The notes under the pieces were generated by a model. The model was not told the origin of the DNA. It saw only the letters and a list, made by a program, of their open reading frames with translations, and did no database searches. Both the position numbers and the translations under genes were made by a program. This document shows positions 6,523 through 44,624 of a stretch of DNA of 47,499 nucleotides, piece by piece. Origin of the DNA: Planctomycetota bacterium (GTDB taxonomy: Bacteria; Planctomycetota; Phycisphaerae; Sedimentisphaerales; Anaerohalosphaeraceae); NCBI GenBank assembly GCA_016873215.1, contig VGXU01000016.1, positions 1 through 47,499 on the forward strand, written 5' to 3'. The first letter of the stretch is position 1. Every line of letters begins with the position of its first letter.

Positions 6523-8262
6523 ATGTGTTCCAAACGAAATGATAAACACGGCATTTATTCTATCGCTGCCGTGGGTCTGATTTGTTTTGCGTTCTCGGCT
6601 TGTGTCGTTCGAGCCGCGGAGGAATCGTCTGTCTCGACCGCAACGACAACCGCCGCGACGCAGCCACCGCAGACGGCTGAAAATCAGCAGGCCGCAGCAC
6701 AACCCTCGGCCGCCGCTGAACCGCCTTCATCTCAGTCGCTCCAGTCGCATGTGTTTAAGAAAAACTGGCCGATTCAGGATGCGTTGCAGTATCTGGCCCA
6801 GGTCTATCAGAAAAATATCGTCCCTTCAGCCAGCGTTGATGGCGTAGTTACGGTGACGAATCTCTACGATGTGACGTTTGAAGAGGCGCTGGTGGCGATT
6901 CTCGGCACCCACAAATATGAAATCAAAGGCAATTTTGTCCGCGTCTATACCAACAAAGAGTTCAAGGAAGATAAGACGCGTCAGGAATATGTGACGATTC
7001 CATTGTATTATATCAACGCTGAAGAAGCAGCGAAATTAGCCAAACCTTTATTGAGCGAGGTCGGCGCTATCGGCGTGACTACTGCCGCCAAAAATGATAC
7101 CGAACCCGGTGAGGGCGGCAATACACTGGCCATTCGTGACCATCTGGTTGTCAGTGATTATCCTGAAGTCGTCAAAAAAATAAAACAGGTCGTCGCCGAC
7201 GTGGATGTACCTCCGCCTCAGGTCTTGATTGAGGTGACGGTACTGGAGGCCAAACTTACCGAAACAACCCAGTTCGGTATTGACTTTAGGGCGTTGGATG
7301 TGGACATAAATAAGGATGGCGTACTGACCGGTCTGAGCGATTCGGGAGTGTCTCAAACGAGTCTCACGCCCGCGGTTAACTTAGGCGGATTGAATGTGGG
7401 TATTATCAACGATAATCTCCGTGTTTTTATCCGTGCGCTGGAAACCGTAACTGACATTACGACGTTAGCCAATCCTAAAATTCTGGCTCTGAATAAACAG
7501 GCCGGGAAACTGATTATTGGTAAAGAGGACGGATATTTAAGTTCAAATACCGTTGGACAAGGCGGCACTGGCGACACATTAACATCAACGGTTCAGATGC
7601 TGGAAAGCGGTACGGTACTGCAGTTTCGCCCATTTGTTGGCAAGGACGGACTGATTCGTATGGAACTGCATCCTGAGCAAAGTGATGGTTCCGTGGATGC
7701 AACGACACAATTACCGACTAAAACCACCACGGAAGTAATGACTAATGTGATGGTCCGTGACGGCAGGACCATCGTTCTGGGCGGTCTATTCAAAGAAAAA
7801 ACGAATCTCGGTCACAGTCAGGTTCCTTTACTGGGCGACATTCCTTTGATTGGGGAATTGTTTAAGAAGACAAACGATTTATCGGAACGTGTCGAGTTGA
7901 TTGTTCTGTTGACGCCTCATGTCATCAATGAACCTGAACAAGCCGACGGCGCCTCCCGTCTGGAAGATGTTCGTCGTCTGGCCTATAACGCCCGCAAGAA
8001 CCTGTCGTGGATGAGTCGGGCCAAGATTGATGAACAGCGTTATAACAAGGCTGTTGAATTATATAACCAGGGCAATGCAGATGCGGCTTTGGCCGAACTG
8101 GAAGCCCAGGAAGTCTGGGGTATCGATCGCAATTATCTTGACCCATTGCGGCTCAAAGAACGCATTTTACGAGAAAAATATCCGGATAAAATCAACCAGA
8201 TGGAGCGCATTATGCTCGGCAATCTTGAAAAGGAAGAGTCCGGCAAGTGGCTGCGAAGATAA
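6523..8262 (+). CDS. gspD: Secretin (GspD/PilQ family outer-membrane channel)
   Basis: A 579-residue outer-membrane secretin. It has a signal peptide (to about residue 32), a Thr/Gln/Pro/Ala-rich linker (to about 75), an N0/STN-like domain (about 78-130, QDALQYLAQVYQKNIV), an N1/NolW-like domain (about 145-230) and the secretin core from VLIEVTVLEAKLTETTQFG to the classic VPLLGDIPLIGELFKKT and VELIVLLTPHVI. After the core comes a helical extension of about 110 residues with a TPR-like YNKAVELYNQGNADAALAEL segment, which could bind a pilotin or the TPR lipoprotein encoded next. There is only one N1-type repeat, fewer than in most GspD proteins. Confidence 0.9.
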   Translation: MCSKRNDKHGIYSIAAVGLICFAFSACVVRAAEESSVSTATTTAATQPPQTAENQQAAAQPSAAAEPPSSQSLQSHVFKKNWPIQDALQYLAQVYQKNIVPSASVDGVVTVTNLYDVTFEEALVAILGTHKYEIKGNFVRVYTNKEFKEDKTRQEYVTIPLYYINAEEAAKLAKPLLSEVGAIGVTTAAKNDTEPGEGGNTLAIRDHLVVSDYPEVVKKIKQVVADVDVPPPQVLIEVTVLEAKLTETTQFGIDFRALDVDINKDGVLTGLSDSGVSQTSLTPAVNLGGLNVGIINDNLRVFIRALETVTDITTLANPKILALNKQAGKLIIGKEDGYLSSNTVGQGGTGDTLTSTVQMLESGTVLQFRPFVGKDGLIRMELHPEQSDGSVDATTQLPTKTTTEVMTNVMVRDGRTIVLGGLFKEKTNLGHSQVPLLGDIPLIGELFKKTNDLSERVELIVLLTPHVINEPEQADGASRLEDVRRLAYNARKNLSWMSRAKIDEQRYNKAVELYNQGNADAALAELEAQEVWGIDRNYLDPLRLKERILREKYPDKINQMERIMLGNLEKEESGKWLRR

Positions 8263-37751: not shown

Positions 37752-39494
37752 TCAATATCCTGAAGCCGCCGAACGGTCGCTGCGGCGACAATCCGCCACG
37801 CCGACATAGTTATTGGGCGCTATGACCCAAATGGTATGGGCATCGCCCTGAGGCCGAGGTCCGGTGCGAACAACGGTGTGGCCTAACTCTTTTAAGGACT
37901 TCATTACCTCAGGAAAACGTTCCGGCGCTTCGAAAATAATCTGGTCAGGGAACCACTGATGCGACAGCCGCGGCATTTCCACGGCTGGTTGAATCGGCAT
38001 TTCAAAATCGAACACACTGACCATGATGGACAAGAGGGTGCCCGGAATGCCCTGACTGCCGGGAGTGCCGGTAATCAACTTAACCCTTCCATTTTCGGCC
38101 ACGATGGTGGGCGTTTGTGAGCTGATTGGGCGCTTGCCGGGAGCAATGGTATTGGGCACGGTCCCGATTCTCCCTTTTGTGTCAGTGAGGCCCGGAAACA
38201 AGTTGAAGCCGAACATGTTATTGTTGAGCAAAAAGCCCATGTTTTTGACAACAATGCGCGAACCCCAGAGACGCTCCAGCGTGTACGTATTGGCAACCGC
38301 CATGCCGTTGCGGTCGATGATAGAAAAGTGGGTCGTGTCTTGTCCTTCTCGAGAAAATGGGATATCGGCGGACAACTCCTTGCTGCGGGTTGCTCTGTGT
38401 AAATCAATGGTTTCTGCGAGCCGGCGGCCGTACTCGGGAGCTGTGAGATTGCTGGGAATCTGGACAAAGGCCGGGTCTCCGATATAGCGGGCGCGGTCAT
38501 AGTTGGCGCGGCGCATTGCCTCCGCCATCACGTGCAGAGTCGTTGGCGACCAGCGGCCCCAGGCTTTCAAATTAAAATTATCCAGCATATTCAGCTCTTC
38601 CAGCAGGCAAACACCTCCGGAACTCGGCGGAGGCGGAACATAAACATCATATTTGTCCCGATAGCGAGTATGCAAGGGCTTGCGTTCGATGGCCTGATAG
38701 CCAGCCATATCTTCGGCTGTAATGAGACCTTTACCACGGGTCATTTCGGCAATGATTTCATCGGCGATGGTGCCTTTGTAGAAGGAGTCCGGACCTAAAT
38801 CGGCCAGTTTTTGGAGGGTACTTGCCAGGTCGGGTTGGATAAGGATGTCCCCCGCGGTCCATGCTCCGCCGCCCGGTTTACCAAAGACACGTTTAAACTC
38901 GTCGTGACCGACTGTGTTTGGATCGTTTAAGTAGGTATTGAGAAGATCCGCGAGGTTGTGGTCAACGACGAACCCATTCTGAGCCAGCACTATGGCAGGT
39001 TGAAGCAACTGCGACCAGGGCAGCGTACCGAATCGCTGATGCGCCATCGCCAGACCGCGAACCGTTCCGGGAACGGCGACGGCCTTGTGCATATACTGCG
39101 AATCCTCTTTGGTGAACATAGTTGGAAATGCCGCGGCCGGGGCAGTCTCTCGATAATCGAAGACGGCCGGGTCTCCTTTGCCGAAGGCGGGATGGACAAG
39201 CATAAAACCGCCGCCGCCCAGATTGCCCGCGGGAGGATAGGATGCCACCAGCGCGAAGGCCGTGGCAACAGCGGCATCCACGGCGTTGCCGCCTTGTTTG
39301 AGGATAGACAGTCCCGCCTCCGACGCGGGGCCGGAGACCGACACCACGACGCCATTGTGACACTCCACAGAATTGCTTGAATATTTTCCGGGAGGAGAGA
39401 GAGGACTTGTTTTAGTCCTGGCTCCTGAGCGCACGCACCCATATACGGCCAATATAAAAAATCCAAGCCACAGTATTTTTTGGCATAGAGCCAT
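37752..39494 (-). CDS. ggt: Gamma-glutamyltransferase lipoprotein
   Basis: A 580-residue Ntn-hydrolase. The signal peptide ends AVYGC (lipidated Cys20), so it is exported and membrane-bound. The large-subunit part has GGNAVDAAVATAFAL and NLGGGGFMLV; autocleavage would occur before Thr387 in DTTHFSIID, freeing the nucleophilic Thr. The small subunit has NNNMFGF and TGTPGSQGIPGT. The enzyme hydrolyses or transfers gamma-glutamyl groups. It is the last gene of the five-gene operon, three bases after the MFS gene; its GGAGG ribosome-binding site lies inside the last MFS codons. A role in maturing or recycling the operon's product is inferred. Confidence 0.92.
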   Translation of the reverse strand: MALCQKILWLGFFILAVYGCVRSGARTKTSPLSPPGKYSSNSVECHNGVVVSVSGPASEAGLSILKQGGNAVDAAVATAFALVASYPPAGNLGGGGFMLVHPAFGKGDPAVFDYRETAPAAAFPTMFTKEDSQYMHKAVAVPGTVRGLAMAHQRFGTLPWSQLLQPAIVLAQNGFVVDHNLADLLNTYLNDPNTVGHDEFKRVFGKPGGGAWTAGDILIQPDLASTLQKLADLGPDSFYKGTIADEIIAEMTRGKGLITAEDMAGYQAIERKPLHTRYRDKYDVYVPPPPSSGGVCLLEELNMLDNFNLKAWGRWSPTTLHVMAEAMRRANYDRARYIGDPAFVQIPSNLTAPEYGRRLAETIDLHRATRSKELSADIPFSREGQDTTHFSIIDRNGMAVANTYTLERLWGSRIVVKNMGFLLNNNMFGFNLFPGLTDTKGRIGTVPNTIAPGKRPISSQTPTIVAENGRVKLITGTPGSQGIPGTLLSIMVSVFDFEMPIQPAVEMPRLSHQWFPDQIIFEAPERFPEVMKSLKELGHTVVRTGPRPQGDAHTIWVIAPNNYVGVADCRRSDRSAASGY

Positions 39495-39497
39495 TTA

Positions 39498-40772
39498 TTA
39501 ATCCTCCAATTCGGGGAAAACAATCGCTGCGCGTGTTCCGGCACAGACAGGCTGACTGCCGGCCTGGTTTCCATTTCGTGCTATGGCGCAGGCTATGATG
39601 TGCAGCACGATAGAAGAACATAGAAATACGCTGACCACGGCGGGCCAATAAAATCTATGATAGGGCGAATTGACCATCCATCCGTACACCGCCAGAGCGA
39701 AAGCTGCTCCGAACATTCGTCCCAGGCTATCAACAAGGTGCAGAAGTCCCATACAGGTGCCCATTGCCGCCTCTCCACTATGTTTTTTTGCCGTTTCGTC
39801 AAAGCAGGGTGTCATCAGGACTTCCCCGCAGATAAAGATGACAATCGCGAAGGGCAGCATCACGGGATGGCCCGCGAACATCAACAGTATCAGGCCTGTA
39901 CAGTAAAGACATACGGAAGTCATCGACCACCATTCCCATTTGAAACCTCGACGGTATAATTTGGCGGACATATAGACGGCCAGAAAATGTGCGCCGATAA
40001 TCGTTGTACACAGGCTGGTCAGAGAAACGATCCATACGGGTCTGTTCGAATGGTATTGGTCGATGACGTACTTGGGAATGATTGTGCCCCAACAGCCGTA
40101 AGGAAGCACCATTGCGAATCGCCGCAGGCAGTCGGCCATAAATCCCTTGTTGTTGTACAGCGTCCTGAGATTTTCGATGCCCCATGTCTTTTGGGGTGCG
40201 GATACGGAAGGAACTTTCGGAGCGACCAGCCCGATAGCCAGGGGCAGATATAAAAGGCCGAGCAGCAGGGTATGAGCGCTATACCCCACACGGGTTGTCA
40301 TTTGGTATGCAATACTGTTGCCGAAGAACGAACCCAGATTAAGCAGGGTTGCCCGTTTCGCCACGGAGCGGCGAAGTATCTCATGGCTGGAATGAAGCAC
40401 CAAGATTGTATTGAGCGAGATTTTTCCCAGAACAAAAGCGAGGCCCGCGACAAAGACGGCCATGGCGGAGATCAAAAACCCCGGCCGGGTCAGAATGACA
40501 AGAAACGCGGACAGCCCAAAGAGAATGCTCGTGGCCAGCGCTGTACGGACGGACGTCCGGTCTGTGTACCAGCCTGCAATCGGCGCACATAAGGATTGTG
40601 CCAGAACATACCCGTTTAAGAGGAGTGCAATCCGAGTATACGACAGTCCTTCCAGATTTTCAAACAGCGGGAAAATATACGGCTGGAATGCGCCTCGGGC
40701 GAGGAACAGAAAACTGATCCCAAAGCATACCAGCCAGATCGCTATCGTTGATTCTGAGCGTTGGTGTGTCAT
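39498..40772 (-). CDS. MFS exporter of the biosynthetic operon
   Basis: A 424-residue major facilitator with about 12 membrane helices; motif A-like loop GWYTDRTSVRTAL after helix 2 and a central loop near residues 195-215. The family and placement right after an ATP-grasp ligase recall BacE-type self-protection exporters of dipeptide antibiotics. It starts four bases after the ligase stop codon. ATG 40772 is chosen; ATG 40790, overlapping the ligase gene, would add six residues. Confidence 0.8.
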   Translation of the reverse strand: MTHQRSESTIAIWLVCFGISFLFLARGAFQPYIFPLFENLEGLSYTRIALLLNGYVLAQSLCAPIAGWYTDRTSVRTALATSILFGLSAFLVILTRPGFLISAMAVFVAGLAFVLGKISLNTILVLHSSHEILRRSVAKRATLLNLGSFFGNSIAYQMTTRVGYSAHTLLLGLLYLPLAIGLVAPKVPSVSAPQKTWGIENLRTLYNNKGFMADCLRRFAMVLPYGCWGTIIPKYVIDQYHSNRPVWIVSLTSLCTTIIGAHFLAVYMSAKLYRRGFKWEWWSMTSVCLYCTGLILLMFAGHPVMLPFAIVIFICGEVLMTPCFDETAKKHSGEAAMGTCMGLLHLVDSLGRMFGAAFALAVYGWMVNSPYHRFYWPAVVSVFLCSSIVLHIIACAIARNGNQAGSQPVCAGTRAAIVFPELED

Positions 40773-40776
40773 CCTC

Positions 40777-42054
40777 TTATTCCACCTCATAGAGGTCCGT
40801 CCATGAAGCGATCTGGTCCACGTCGCGGCGGACAACGTCGGCATCTTCGGACAGCAATTCGATATATAGAGGAGCCCGATAACCGCTTCTGGAAAGACCA
40901 ACGGACTGGCCGGCTTGAATCCGTACTTCATGGTAGAGATACGTGGGCAGTTTTGCGAGCAGGTCGAGATGTCGAATAGTACGCAACGTACCATTTCTGT
41001 GTGCAAACGGCGTGATGATAGCCGCTGCAAGTTTGCGGGTCTGATACAATTGGGGGCTTTGGCCGCACAGAATTTGATAATAGCCATAAATCTCATCCAT
41101 GCCGTAAGCCATCTCCAGAATGCGAGGTCGGTTGCCGCCGGGCCGTCCGGCGATCTCTCCTAATCGTGAACCAATAAATTCGACATGGGCGGCACAGGTT
41201 GTCATATCGAGCGATTGCACACCTGCTATAGCAAGCCGCTTCAATTCTTCCTGTTTCGGTAAACTGAGACGTGAAGGAACCAAACGAGCAAAATGATGAA
41301 AGTCATCCACCCCGACGTCCCGTCCCGTCAGTACGTCAACGACCGGCGTTGTATATACCCGGCCTGTATGATCGGCCAGGCAGTCGATGGAGGTGTTGCT
41401 TCCTTCCATATATTCCGCCATAACAACCGTCAGGGCTGTACCTTTTTTGCCGAGCTTCTCATAATATTGGGGTACCTCGTTTAACATTATGCGGTAATTG
41501 CACAGCAATGTTTCCGCGTTGGCGTTGCGTGTGGACCACATACTGGCGGCTACATTGGAGGGTTGCAGGAAAACAGGGTATCCCATGCGATCGGCGGATT
41601 CGATGAGGTCGGATTCAGATTGTATGATATAGAAGCGGGCGGTGGCACCGGGTCCAATCCGTTCCTGAAAACGCCGGCGCATAACGCTCTTATCAAGGCA
41701 CAGGCGTGCGGATGCAGAAGAAATACAGGGAATGCCGAGGGCTGCCGCGATGTCGGCGGTCTGCGCCACGTAAAATTCGCCCACGTTAAACAAACACGCA
41801 ATTCCCATACGTGCTCGGATATTGCTTACGGTTTCAATCAGTTCGGACAGAGGCCGGGAGAAATCGAAACGTTCGATCATAACGAAGCGGGACACGTCAC
41901 CCAGCCGGTGCCTGCTGTTTGTGTCAACGAGGACACCTAAAGGCAGGTTTCGTGATTGCAGGCTCTCAAATTCTCCGCGACGAACCATACCCATCAACAA
42001 AACGATTCCCTGCTGTATTTTCGTGTTTCTTTCAATCTCTGGAGGTACGCTCAT
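40777..42054 (-). CDS. ATP-grasp ligase (amino-acid ligase-like)
   Basis: A 425-residue ATP-grasp enzyme. The N-terminal domain leads to LGIPCISSASARLCLDKSVMRRRF, the ATP domain has GYPVFLQPSNVAASM (Gln where the first ATP-binding Lys is usual) and VVMAEYMEGSNTSID, and the metal site is AAHVEFIGSRLGEIAGRPGGNRP. The EIAGRPGG pattern resembles L-amino acid ligases that join a carboxylate to an amino acid through an acyl phosphate. It begins by a four-base overlap (ATGA) with the aminotransferase gene. It is the likely peptide- or amide-forming step of the operon; the substrate cannot be read from sequence. Confidence 0.8.
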   Translation of the reverse strand: MSVPPEIERNTKIQQGIVLLMGMVRRGEFESLQSRNLPLGVLVDTNSRHRLGDVSRFVMIERFDFSRPLSELIETVSNIRARMGIACLFNVGEFYVAQTADIAAALGIPCISSASARLCLDKSVMRRRFQERIGPGATARFYIIQSESDLIESADRMGYPVFLQPSNVAASMWSTRNANAETLLCNYRIMLNEVPQYYEKLGKKGTALTVVMAEYMEGSNTSIDCLADHTGRVYTTPVVDVLTGRDVGVDDFHHFARLVPSRLSLPKQEELKRLAIAGVQSLDMTTCAAHVEFIGSRLGEIAGRPGGNRPRILEMAYGMDEIYGYYQILCGQSPQLYQTRKLAAAIITPFAHRNGTLRTIRHLDLLAKLPTYLYHEVRIQAGQSVGLSRSGYRAPLYIELLSEDADVVRRDVDQIASWTDLYEVE

Positions 42055-43241
42055 GCCAGCAACTTAACAAATTGTTCCAGACGTGTCAAGCCGGCCGCGA
42101 TCTCTTCGTTCGGAATGGCGTATGAAATACGGATATGGCGGTCGGAGCCGAAAGCCGCCCCTGAAACGACGGCAATATGCGCATATTCCAGCAGCATTTC
42201 CGCCAGTTGATCCACATTTTCCACACGCTGACCCTTGAACGATTTGTTCAGCAGGCCGCTGACATCAGGAAAGAGGTAAAACGCCCCGGCGGGAGCCACA
42301 CATGAAAGATGGGGGATTTTCTCAATTTGTTGCAGTGCGGCGGCGCGATGGGCGTTTAACTGCCTGCGGTTTTCCGCGACAAAAGCGTCGTTGGCCGGTT
42401 CCAATGCGGCCAGCGCAGCATATTGCACGAGGTTGCAGGTATTTGACGCGATATGACTTTGAAGATTGGCCACGGCTTTGATGATTGCCTGCGGTGCGGC
42501 GATATGCCCGGCTCTCCAGCCGGCGATGCAATATGTTTTTGAAAAGGAACCGATGAGAATAGTCCGAGCTTTCATTTCAGGAACGAGCTTCACAATGTTG
42601 TGGTGGACCGCAGGTGCATAAACCAATGCATCGTAGCATTCATCAAAAATACAAATCAGATTGAGCTGCAGAGCCAGGCGAGCGATACCTTCCAGCACGC
42701 CGGCGTTATACACAATGCCCGTCGGATTATGAGGTGTGTTAAGAAGGATTCCCCGTGTGCGTGGCGTGATACTCCGCGCAAGCTCATCCACATCAATTTG
42801 GAAATCATTATGTGCGGTCTGCAGGAAGACCGGCGTTGCCCCGGCCAGACGGACTTGTTCGGGGAACGTCACCCAGTACGGGGCCGGAATGATGACCTCA
42901 TCCTCATGCCCAAATACAGCAAATACGGAGTTGAACAATGCCTGTTTGGCTCCTGCGGTAAAACCGACTTCATCGTCCGTGTATGCGGCACCCGTCTTTT
43001 GCGAGACTTTCTGAGCCAGTCGCTCGCGCAATTCACGAATGCCCAATGTATCGGTATATTGTGTACGTCCGGTGTCAATTGCTTCTCGAGCGGCTTCTTT
43101 GATGCTCGGACTTGTATCCTGATCCAGTTCCCCGGCGGCAAAATTAACGACGTGTACTCCCTCGGAACACAGTTTGCGGGCGCGGTTGCGCATGCCCGAA
43201 GTCCGGGAACCAGAAAGGCATTTCATTCGTTCAGCTAACAT
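42051..43241 (-). CDS. Class I PLP aminotransferase
   Basis: A 396-residue aspartate-aminotransferase-type enzyme. PLP Lys235 is in GSFSKTYCIAGWRAGH, with Asp200 and Tyr203 in FDECYDALVY, substrate loop NTPHNPTG, and the C-terminal RISYA arginine. It would convert a 2-oxo acid to an amino acid. The start overlaps the end of the upstream superfamily enzyme by 11 bases and has AAGGAAAGC just before it, so the two are translated together, which suggests the oxo acid comes from that enzyme. Housekeeping AspC activity is the alternative. Confidence 0.9.
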   Translation of the reverse strand: MLAERMKCLSGSRTSGMRNRARKLCSEGVHVVNFAAGELDQDTSPSIKEAAREAIDTGRTQYTDTLGIRELRERLAQKVSQKTGAAYTDDEVGFTAGAKQALFNSVFAVFGHEDEVIIPAPYWVTFPEQVRLAGATPVFLQTAHNDFQIDVDELARSITPRTRGILLNTPHNPTGIVYNAGVLEGIARLALQLNLICIFDECYDALVYAPAVHHNIVKLVPEMKARTILIGSFSKTYCIAGWRAGHIAAPQAIIKAVANLQSHIASNTCNLVQYAALAALEPANDAFVAENRRQLNAHRAAALQQIEKIPHLSCVAPAGAFYLFPDVSGLLNKSFKGQRVENVDQLAEMLLEYAHIAVVSGAAFGSDRHIRISYAIPNEEIAAGLTRLEQFVKLLA

Positions 43242-44226
43242 GCTTTCCTTTTTTCAGCGTGACAGGGGATTGGTTTTCATGCTGCGCAAGGCATGAAGTT
43301 TCGACAAGATGCGGTATCCCGCTTTTATTGCCTATACCCAGCAGGGCTTCAAGGTCCTGAATCCTCTGTGCTCCCACCAGGGTGCTCACATCCGTGACTT
43401 TGGCGATGTCTTTTTCGATTACCCCGCTGGATGCGGCTTTTGACAGGATGCCAAATACACGGTCCATAGCCGCATAGGCCGCGCGCAATCCGTGATTGGC
43501 AAAAATAAAGTGAGAGATACCGGCTTCAAAAAACTGTTTCTTATTTATGTCGGGCATGCGTGTGGGGGCAATAAAAATCGGCGTACGGCATTTCCACCGT
43601 TTTCCAAAGGCGAGTGCTTCCTCGCCGGTTGCGTCCAGAGACTGAATAAAGATGGCGTCAGCTCCGGCATCCGCATAGGCTTCGGCGCGACGTAGCGCTT
43701 CCTCCACACCCATACCGGCGACCAACGCTTCGGTGCGGGCAATAATTTTGCAGTTACTGCCGTTGTTTCGGACGGCCTCCAGCGCCGCGCGTATTCGTGT
43801 GACGTGCTCCTTAATGGAAACCAGCGTTCGGTCATACCCGCCATATAGACTGCATCGTTTGGACAGGGGATTATCTTCAATACATAGCGCCGCCGCCCCG
43901 GCCTCCGCCATCGCCTCTACGACAGAATAGACCTTAATTGCATCTCCATATCCTGAATCCAGGTCAACCACAATCGGCAGTGACGTACACTTGTGTATCG
44001 TGCGTACGGTGGACAGCATCTCTTCGATGCCAATAATGCCCACATCGGGCAGCCCCACCGCAGCGGAACAGCAAAAGCTGCTTACCCACAAAAAATCGAA
44101 GTTCCATTTAGCGGCAGTTAAAGCGGACAATCCATCATACACTCCGGCCCCCACCTGAGAACGGCCGTTAAACAGATTCCCCGCGTGCCGGAATCCGGAA
44201 ACATCATCCCGCTTTTCTTTCGTCAT
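43231..44226 (-). CDS. PEP mutase/isocitrate lyase superfamily enzyme
   Basis: A 331-residue TIM-barrel enzyme. Overall it is closest to PEP mutases: GVYDGLSALTAAKWNFDFLW, VVDLDSGYGD, and IARTEALVAGMGVEEALRRA (Arg164). The gating loop reads EDNPLSKRCS (117-126). PEP mutase has EDK-x5-NS here, while methylisocitrate lyases have KRCGH; Lys123 is kept but Asn is replaced by Cys125, and the later PEP-mutase His is Gln195. It could be a C-C lyase, a phosphonopyruvate-type enzyme or something new. ATG 44226 has AAAGGA nine bases upstream; ATG 44253 is an alternative. First gene of the operon. Confidence 0.85.
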   Translation of the reverse strand: MTKEKRDDVSGFRHAGNLFNGRSQVGAGVYDGLSALTAAKWNFDFLWVSSFCCSAAVGLPDVGIIGIEEMLSTVRTIHKCTSLPIVVDLDSGYGDAIKVYSVVEAMAEAGAAALCIEDNPLSKRCSLYGGYDRTLVSIKEHVTRIRAALEAVRNNGSNCKIIARTEALVAGMGVEEALRRAEAYADAGADAIFIQSLDATGEEALAFGKRWKCRTPIFIAPTRMPDINKKQFFEAGISHFIFANHGLRAAYAAMDRVFGILSKAASSGVIEKDIAKVTDVSTLVGAQRIQDLEALLGIGNKSGIPHLVETSCLAQHENQSPVTLKKGKHVS

Positions 44227-44350
44227 TTTATTTTTCCTTTCCAGTACAGCCATTGAGCCGCAAGTTATATCTCATCCGGCCTGTGTGTTTTTTCAAAGGG
44301 ATATCCGCCGGGAAAACAAATACCGCCGGACAAAAGAACTATTACTCGAC

Positions 44351-44387
44351 AGTATATTATTTCCACTTCTGTATAAGAATTTTATAC
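44351..44387 (-). promoter_or_regulatory. Possible promoter and operator palindrome of the five-gene operon
   Basis: On the minus strand TATACT (44356-44351) is a good -10 box, with TTCTTA (44379-44374) as a weak -35 at 17 bases. The -35 box lies within a perfect palindrome, GTATAA-gaatt-TTATAC (44371-44387), which suits a dimeric repressor or activator. The leader would be about 120 bases. Confidence 0.45.
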
Positions 44388-44569
44388 TAATTTCGAGCGA
44401 ATATCACGGGTCAATGCTACCGGACTCAAGATGAGAATTTGATGAGAATTTTATTAGGATATGTCCCTAAATCCAGATTTTCAATACTGAGACCGTCAAT
44501 TTAGGAAGGAAAAGGGGAGGCATGACTTCTAAACATATCCGGGGGACAATTTTTTGGTTAAGGATAAAT

Positions 44570-44597
44570 AAAGCCCATCGTTTTTGCGATGGGCTTT
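44570..44597 (-). terminator. Terminator of the Xer recombinase gene
   Basis: AAAGCCCATCG and CGATGGGCTTT form an 11-bp perfect stem with a 6-base loop, 28 bases after the recombinase stop codon. On the minus strand the tail is TTTATTT. It would separate the recombinase transcript from the biosynthetic operon. Confidence 0.85.
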
Positions 44598-44624
44598 TTA
44601 GAGGGATTAAATTTCTTACCGTTT

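Follow-up and report, generated by a model that had tools for sequence, protein, structure and literature searches.

This work concerns a run of five genes in a 47,499-nucleotide stretch of DNA, referred to here as the window, which represents contig C16 in a planctomycete genome of 2.69 Mb. On balance, the genes are likely to direct the synthesis and export of a small phosphonoalamide-like peptide, probably a dipeptide given the single ligase, that contains phosphonoalanine, an amino acid with a carbon-phosphorus bond whose known relatives include antibiotics. The operon occupies positions 37752-44226, on the minus strand throughout, and in order of transcription encodes a phosphoenolpyruvate (PEP) mutase/isocitrate lyase superfamily enzyme (P0001; 43231..44226; PF13714, 171 bits), a class I pyridoxal phosphate-dependent aminotransferase of a PEP-mutase-associated clade (P0004; 42051..43241; PF00155, 238 bits), a predicted ATP-grasp L-amino-acid ligase (P0002; 40777..42054), a major facilitator superfamily (MFS) transporter (P0003; 39498..40772; MFS_1, PF07690, 72 bits) and a probable lipoprotein of the gamma-glutamyltransferase (GGT) family of N-terminal nucleophile (Ntn) hydrolases, with an altered donor pocket (P0005; 37752..39494; TIGR00066, 470 bits). 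At the first two junctions the genes overlap by 11 and 4 bases, and the next two junctions are +4 and +3. Rechecking of the open reading frames (ORFs), frames and coordinates confirmed this coupled arrangement as it had been described in an initial annotation of the sequence, and the family calls made there also hold: the scores for PF13714, PF00155, MFS_1 and TIGR00066 exceed their cut-offs, and the ATP-grasp assignment, borderline with PF13535 (26.7 against a cut-off of 27), is confirmed by profile and fold comparison. The proposal of that annotation, namely a dedicated operon in which an oxo acid is made, aminated, ligated and exported, is supported.

The ligase is the most specific probe for locating the operon in other genomes. 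Among 397 genomes searched within the class there are five carriers including the window, and scanning 84,980 species genomes with a pattern gave two ligase loci, L072 and L073, with 73-75% identity. A phylum-wide search of 392 genomes found no homologue above 47.4 bits besides the query, and searches of the other two families concerned added no carriers. All five genes are present in genomes G504 (locus L078) and G465 (locus L079), in the same order and on the same strand as in the window, while L072 and L073 hold the first four in order on contigs that stop inside the MFS gene, with the GGT position outside the contig. The flanking genes differ from one operon locus to the next. Identity to the window proteins is 73-76% for the aminotransferase, 67-75% for the ligase, 72-84% for the transporter (in all four other operons) and 65-66% for the GGT relative, and ratios of nonsynonymous to synonymous substitution (dN/dS) are about 0.04-0.18 in orthologous comparisons with unsaturated dS, such that every gene of the operon is under purifying selection. 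The initial annotation had asked for a search of the gene order in other Phycisphaerae and held that a dedicated pathway would be unlikely if the homologues were never neighbours elsewhere, or if each gene were the only housekeeping copy of its family. The homologues are adjacent in four other genomes; in the window genome the first gene, the ligase and the GGT gene are single copies, but the aminotransferase has a separate paralogue elsewhere (31% identity), and the ligase was found neither in the same-genus genome nor in the same-family genomes sampled, from which it follows that the operon is an accessory set and not a housekeeping one. The five genes thus constitute a real, dedicated and patchily distributed operon. 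That genes of primary metabolism (a methylisocitrate-lyase-like enzyme, an aspartate aminotransferase, a carboxylate ligase, a transporter and a glutathione-type GGT) should have come together by chance, with no common product, is very improbable. Housekeeping members do exist in each of these families, but the maintenance of order in five genomes despite different flanks, the patchiness among the sampled genomes of the class, the purifying selection and the residue changes specific to the operon copies of ligase and GGT all speak against coincidence, which conserved synteny has already largely refuted.

What, then, is the oxo acid? Among the operon genes the aminotransferase appears to decide the substrate question best. 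When P0004 was compared with 1431 plasmid records, the top-ranked homologues were encoded directly downstream of the annotated PEP mutase gene aepX in all eight rhizobial plasmids examined (from Mesorhizobium, Agrobacterium, Rhizobium and Sinorhizobium), with a cytidylyltransferase gene following the aminotransferase; the product of a rhizobial aepX at L086 carries EDKLFPKRNS. Lower-ranked matches, from Bacteroides, Streptomyces, Paracoccus and Thermomicrobium, do not lie beside PEP mutase genes. In a 20-sequence tree the operon and PEP-mutase-adjacent aminotransferases form one clade (support 100/99) that excludes the housekeeping and structurally solved aspartate aminotransferases, and eight diagnostic residues are common to the operon and aepX-adjacent enzymes and missing from aspartate aminotransferases. 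P0004 retains the GxKQ lysine of aspartate aminotransferases and the catalytic SFSKTY lysine. In phosphonoalamide biosynthesis, an aspartate-type aminotransferase turns phosphonopyruvate into phosphonoalanine, and the chemistry of the PepM, aspartate-type aminotransferase and ATP-grasp ligase has been reconstituted (PMC11867202). Clade membership together with this precedent indicates phosphonoalanine, and the predicted conversion of phosphonopyruvate to L-phosphonoalanine by P0004 is well supported by the clade. The window genome holds no close phosphonopyruvate decarboxylase or 2-aminoethylphosphonate (2-AEP) aminotransferase, which is consistent with P0004 acting as the pulling step. On rhizobial and agrobacterial plasmids (L149-L156) the succession of aepX, aminotransferase gene and cytidylyltransferase gene is conserved, and a gene for a CDP-alcohol phosphatidyltransferase is often present as well, which suggests a phosphonoalanine-derived lipid or surface group. 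In Sinorhizobium medicae (L161:2995-5080) an aminotransferase gene and a PEP-mutase/isocitrate-lyase-family gene lie beside alkaline-phosphatase-family and ABC transporter genes, a set that resembles phosphonoalanine catabolism.

The first enzyme is less conventional. The initial annotation placed P0001 in the PEP mutase superfamily, and the superfamily call stands (PF13714), but its reader had not seen that the protein fails the standard motif test. At the position of EDK(X)5NS it carries EDNPLSKRCSLYGG, with EDNPLSKRCS in place of the motif. Among NCBIfam profiles TIGR02320 (PEP_mutase) nonetheless scores best, at 212 bits under a cut-off of 319.55, followed by phosphonopyruvate hydrolase and then methylisocitrate lyase, and in the PDB the protein is closest to 5unc, a PEP mutase, and 2dua, a phosphonopyruvate hydrolase. 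In the numbering of mussel PEP mutase, taken from the alignment, P0001 retains W44, S46, D58, D85, D87, E114, K120, S123, R159, N239 and H240, and is substituted at K116N, N122C, H190Q and G47S. Asn122 and His190 of the mussel enzyme presumably contact the transferred phosphoryl group.

Part of this substitution pattern belongs to a wider family, termed here the KRCS family. Nineteen planctomycete homologues have the C122 version in common, mostly as EDNxFPKRCSFY, and retain H190; K116N and N122C extend across nearly all of the family, with H190Q and G47S additional in the window type. TIGR02320 is the best-scoring model for the KRCS proteins too. Most of the 19 are fused to a nucleotidyltransferase domain, MobA-like by Pfam in four cases. 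In 12 genomes the KRCS gene is contiguous with two genes that jointly match a split phosphonopyruvate decarboxylase, and in 10 of the 12 also with a gene of the 2-AEP aminotransferase family (290-340 bits, slightly under the cut-off of 360.8); in G005 a phosphonate-type Fe-alcohol dehydrogenase gene is present in addition. An assignment of the split neighbour to sulfopyruvate decarboxylase was rejected, as the phosphonopyruvate model gave the higher values in the one pair scored (137/202 against 125/169 bits). Judged by gene content, this neighbourhood is the standard architecture of a 2-AEP cluster, and for that reason the KRCS family is probably a PEP mutase class without EDK(X)5NS. A phosphonate-synthesis context is thus found for the KRCS family in its neighbours and fusions, and for the window in its PEP-mutase-type aminotransferase. 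Since three genome-mining studies of phosphonates demand EDK(X)5NS (PMC6697681, PMC12723261, PMC8931226), the KRCS family would have been excluded there, and no description of a motif-less PEP mutase variant was found in the open-access literature searched.

Several KRCS loci are of interest in themselves. Fusion clusters with EDNxFPKRCSFY, decarboxylase and 2-AEP aminotransferase occur at L053, L056, L059 and L061 and in G037, G081, G100, G191, G223 and G254. A stand-alone KRCSLY relative (L060:5230-8770) forms one operon together with genes for a malate/sulfolactate-like dehydrogenase of the Ldh_2 type and for an acyl ligase of the AMP-forming kind, and this set may encode a pathway of phosphonolactate type. 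At L052:1118-11920 the KRCS gene and split decarboxylase are accompanied by desaturase-like, acyltransferase-like, UbiA-like and phosphonate-type Fe-alcohol dehydrogenase genes, and the group looks like a phosphonolipid cluster.

The first position of the operon is occupied by two types of gene. In the window, L072 and L073 it is the Q190 type, the L072 and L073 copies having 69-74% identity to that of the window, and in L078 and L079 it is an H190 KRCS protein of the EDNxFPKRCSFY family (264 bits with TIGR02320; 82% identity between the two loci). The two types share 35-39% identity, set against about 65-76% for the remaining operon genes. In the tree the L078 and L079 first genes fall within the KRCS family and the window type lies outside it, yet approximately unbiased (AU) tests are compatible both with one clade uniting the first genes of the five operons (p 0.205) and with one KRCS clade that takes in the window type (p 0.344), neither being rejected. 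The alternatives are replacement of the first gene, as the identity figures suggest, and unusually fast divergence.

It is at this enzyme that a phosphonate product is most open to question, and several observations weigh against it. P0001 lacks both N122 and H190, it sits on a long branch near the lyases, and it is only 37-39% identical to its counterpart in the same slot in L078 and L079, so the reaction may differ. No KRCS member tested reaches the TIGR02320 cut-off, the fused relatives scoring up to 304 bits. Further along the pathway, the ligase has Gln164 at the position of the ATP-binding KP lysine in all five operon copies, whereas Lys is found in 24 of 24 outgroup ATP-grasp homologues, and a second ligase is absent from the operon when the phosphonoalamides of Streptomyces need two. 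The P0001 type of the window, L072 and L073 could accordingly be imagined to run another reaction (C-C lyase, hydrolase or condensing) that yields a different dicarboxylate-like oxo acid and a non-phosphonate antimetabolite peptide, in which case the product of L078 and L079 would be either a phosphonate or this very compound, reached along a different route. This is rather unlikely, even with C122 being the lyase residue, Gln replacing His at 190, an F-Q-L strand resembling F-E-L of the lyases, and a branching position outside the KRCS family. The aminotransferase that accompanies it belongs to the PEP-mutase-associated clade and hardly varies among the five operons, P0001 lacks the histidine of the lyase CGH motif but has the mutase residues S123, N239 and H240, the profile it matches best is PEP_mutase and not a lyase model, and the AU test leaves a common clade of the first genes standing.

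The five orthologous ligases keep Gln164 under purifying selection, and for this reason P0002 is read as an adapted enzyme. A profile of five ligase sequences has BacD as its best PDB match (1.2e-7). An AlphaFold model built from a 29-sequence alignment reached a predicted local distance difference test (pLDDT) score of 88.3, an earlier model from five sequences (pLDDT 37) having been discarded. Its best VIA match is the L-amino-acid ligase 3vot (Z 39.6, root mean square deviation 2.8, 394 residues), well ahead of the other VIA rows, with BacD at 33.2, RizA at 32.1 and the best row of another family at 33.6. The top four Foldseek hits are RizA and BacD/YwfE entries. The modelled fold is that of an L-amino-acid ligase, and D121-K122 (the DK lysine), E292, E300 and R304 are retained. 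Searches of plasmids for the ligase gave only matches of about 27%, in Streptomyces clusters with an unrelated MFS gene.

P0003, predicted to export the product, has no homologue in the plasmid collection at 1e-5. P0005 retains the catalytic Thr, Arg114 and Ser462/463, but the donor-pocket Asp433 is lost in all three operon copies (G, A, A) and is present in 29 of 29 aligned non-operon planctomycete homologues. In GGT of Escherichia coli and Bacillus subtilis, D433N or D445A abolishes transpeptidation, and D433N introduces glutaryl-acylase activity (PMC8062742). The loss of Asp433 therefore makes a plain gamma-glutamyl role, such as the capping suggested in the initial annotation, unlikely; the protein might conceivably act on the exported product as an acylase or peptidase. 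The same annotation had called the protein secreted; the N-terminus has a lipobox-like VYGC, with G19-C20 invariant in three orthologues, and P0005 is consequently better viewed as probably anchored in the envelope as a lipoprotein than as freely secreted. A pairing of GGT and ATP-grasp genes in G045, G066 and G085 was inspected and appears to be differently arranged. At L123 and L124 a GGT-family gene lies near two divergent ATP-grasp genes, joined in L123 by a glycogen-synthase-like gene.

An external Ntn-hydrolase followed by uptake is also a plausible layout for scavenging. The operon would then serve the catabolism of phosphonoalanine or phosphonopyruvate, with the MFS protein importing a phosphono-peptide, the GGT relative cleaving it outside, the aminotransferase running in reverse and P0001 acting as phosphonopyruvate hydrolase, to which it is almost as close as to PEP mutase and which likewise differs from Asn at position 122 (Thr). 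We regard this as improbable: a dedicated ATP-consuming amino-acid ligase is out of place in catabolism, P0004 does not group with the S. medicae aminotransferase that lies beside the catabolic-looking superfamily gene, and the operon has no phosphatase or phosphonatase gene.

In the favoured phosphonoalanine peptide pathway, P0001, as a member of the motif-less PEP mutase class or, in this copy, derived from or exchanged with it, would convert PEP to phosphonopyruvate, and P0004 would draw this unfavourable equilibrium forward by forming L-phosphonoalanine. The BacD/BL00235-type ligase would couple phosphonoalanine to an amino acid and the MFS protein would carry the product out. Finally, and more speculatively, the lipoprotein GGT relative, retuned away from gamma-glutamyl donors, might trim, release or recycle an acyl or peptide bond outside the cytoplasm. 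P0005 would in this way represent a naturally retuned Ntn-hydrolase, and the operon a compact source of candidate antimetabolite peptides, a type of product that the literature searched does not describe for the phylum. Beyond the operon, the KRCS family appears in textbook phosphonate neighbourhoods in at least 10 planctomycetes without EDK(X)5NS, and one branch starts a phosphonopeptide-like operon. If the family forms C-P bonds, the phosphonate capacity of the Planctomycetota has been overlooked, and the mechanistic role given to Asn122 becomes directly testable.

The operon is set between gyrA-holA (plus strand) on one side and an xer-type recombinase gene (minus strand) on the other. Upstream of it is a low-GC (38% guanine plus cytosine) region of 398 bp (44227..44624, minus strand), which contains hexamers resembling promoter elements and, behind the upstream xer-type gene, a hairpin resembling a terminator; these are only consensus matches and provide no evidence of function. 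The patchy distribution is as for a mobile accessory pathway. The GC content of the operon is close to that of its flanks, and composition is therefore silent on horizontal gene transfer. A test for empty sites gave none (same-genus holA neighbourhoods leave the contig, and elsewhere xer is unlinked). In L072 the region upstream of the operon holds an integrase-like gene (1-1014), and in the metagenome-assembled genome that carries L073 a frameshift at 8155-8162 splits the first operon gene, which may reflect either faulty sequencing or a recently acquired lesion.

How does the operon compare with known systems? Considered singly, P0001 resembles the PEP mutase and phosphonopyruvate hydrolase families in fold family and most active-site residues, and P0005 shares fold family, catalytic Thr, Arg114 and Ser462/463 with gamma-glutamyltransferase (EC 2.3.2.2) and class IV cephalosporin acylases, from which the lost Asp433 sets it apart. 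Bacilysin biosynthesis (bacD/bacE/bacF) follows the same logic of aminotransferase, ATP-grasp dipeptide ligase and MFS exporter, with the same ligase fold, but has neither a PEP mutase-family enzyme nor a GGT. The bacilysin warhead derives from prephenate, and no bacA or bacB was recognised among the ORFs neighbouring the operon in the window, L072, L073, L078 and L079, where no dedicated profile search was made. The rhizobial aepX clusters are alike in having a PEP mutase followed by an aminotransferase of the same clade, but lead on to activation by a nucleotide and transfer of lipid type, and have neither a ligase nor a GGT gene beside the aminotransferase gene. The closest parallel is found in the phosphonoalamides (pnaABCD and pnaT in Streptomyces, with a related Bacillus cluster), whose set of pepM, aspartate-type aminotransferase, ATP-grasp ligases and transporter (PMC11867202) nearly matches that of the operon: the statement in the initial annotation that no described pathway has this set is correct for the exact combination in the literature searched, and needs qualifying to this extent. 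Both systems have a PEP mutase-family enzyme, an aspartate-type aminotransferase with a pulling role that is predicted for P0004 (PnaA being likened by description and not by sequence), an ATP-grasp L-amino-acid ligase and a transporter gene. Unlike the phosphonoalamide clusters, the window operon has one ligase and not two, a motif-less first enzyme and a GGT-family lipoprotein as its fifth gene, and it belongs to a different phylum and is very compact in its order. The type of pathway, phosphonoalanine peptides, would therefore be a known one, of which the gene set and the motif-less first enzyme appear to be new variants.

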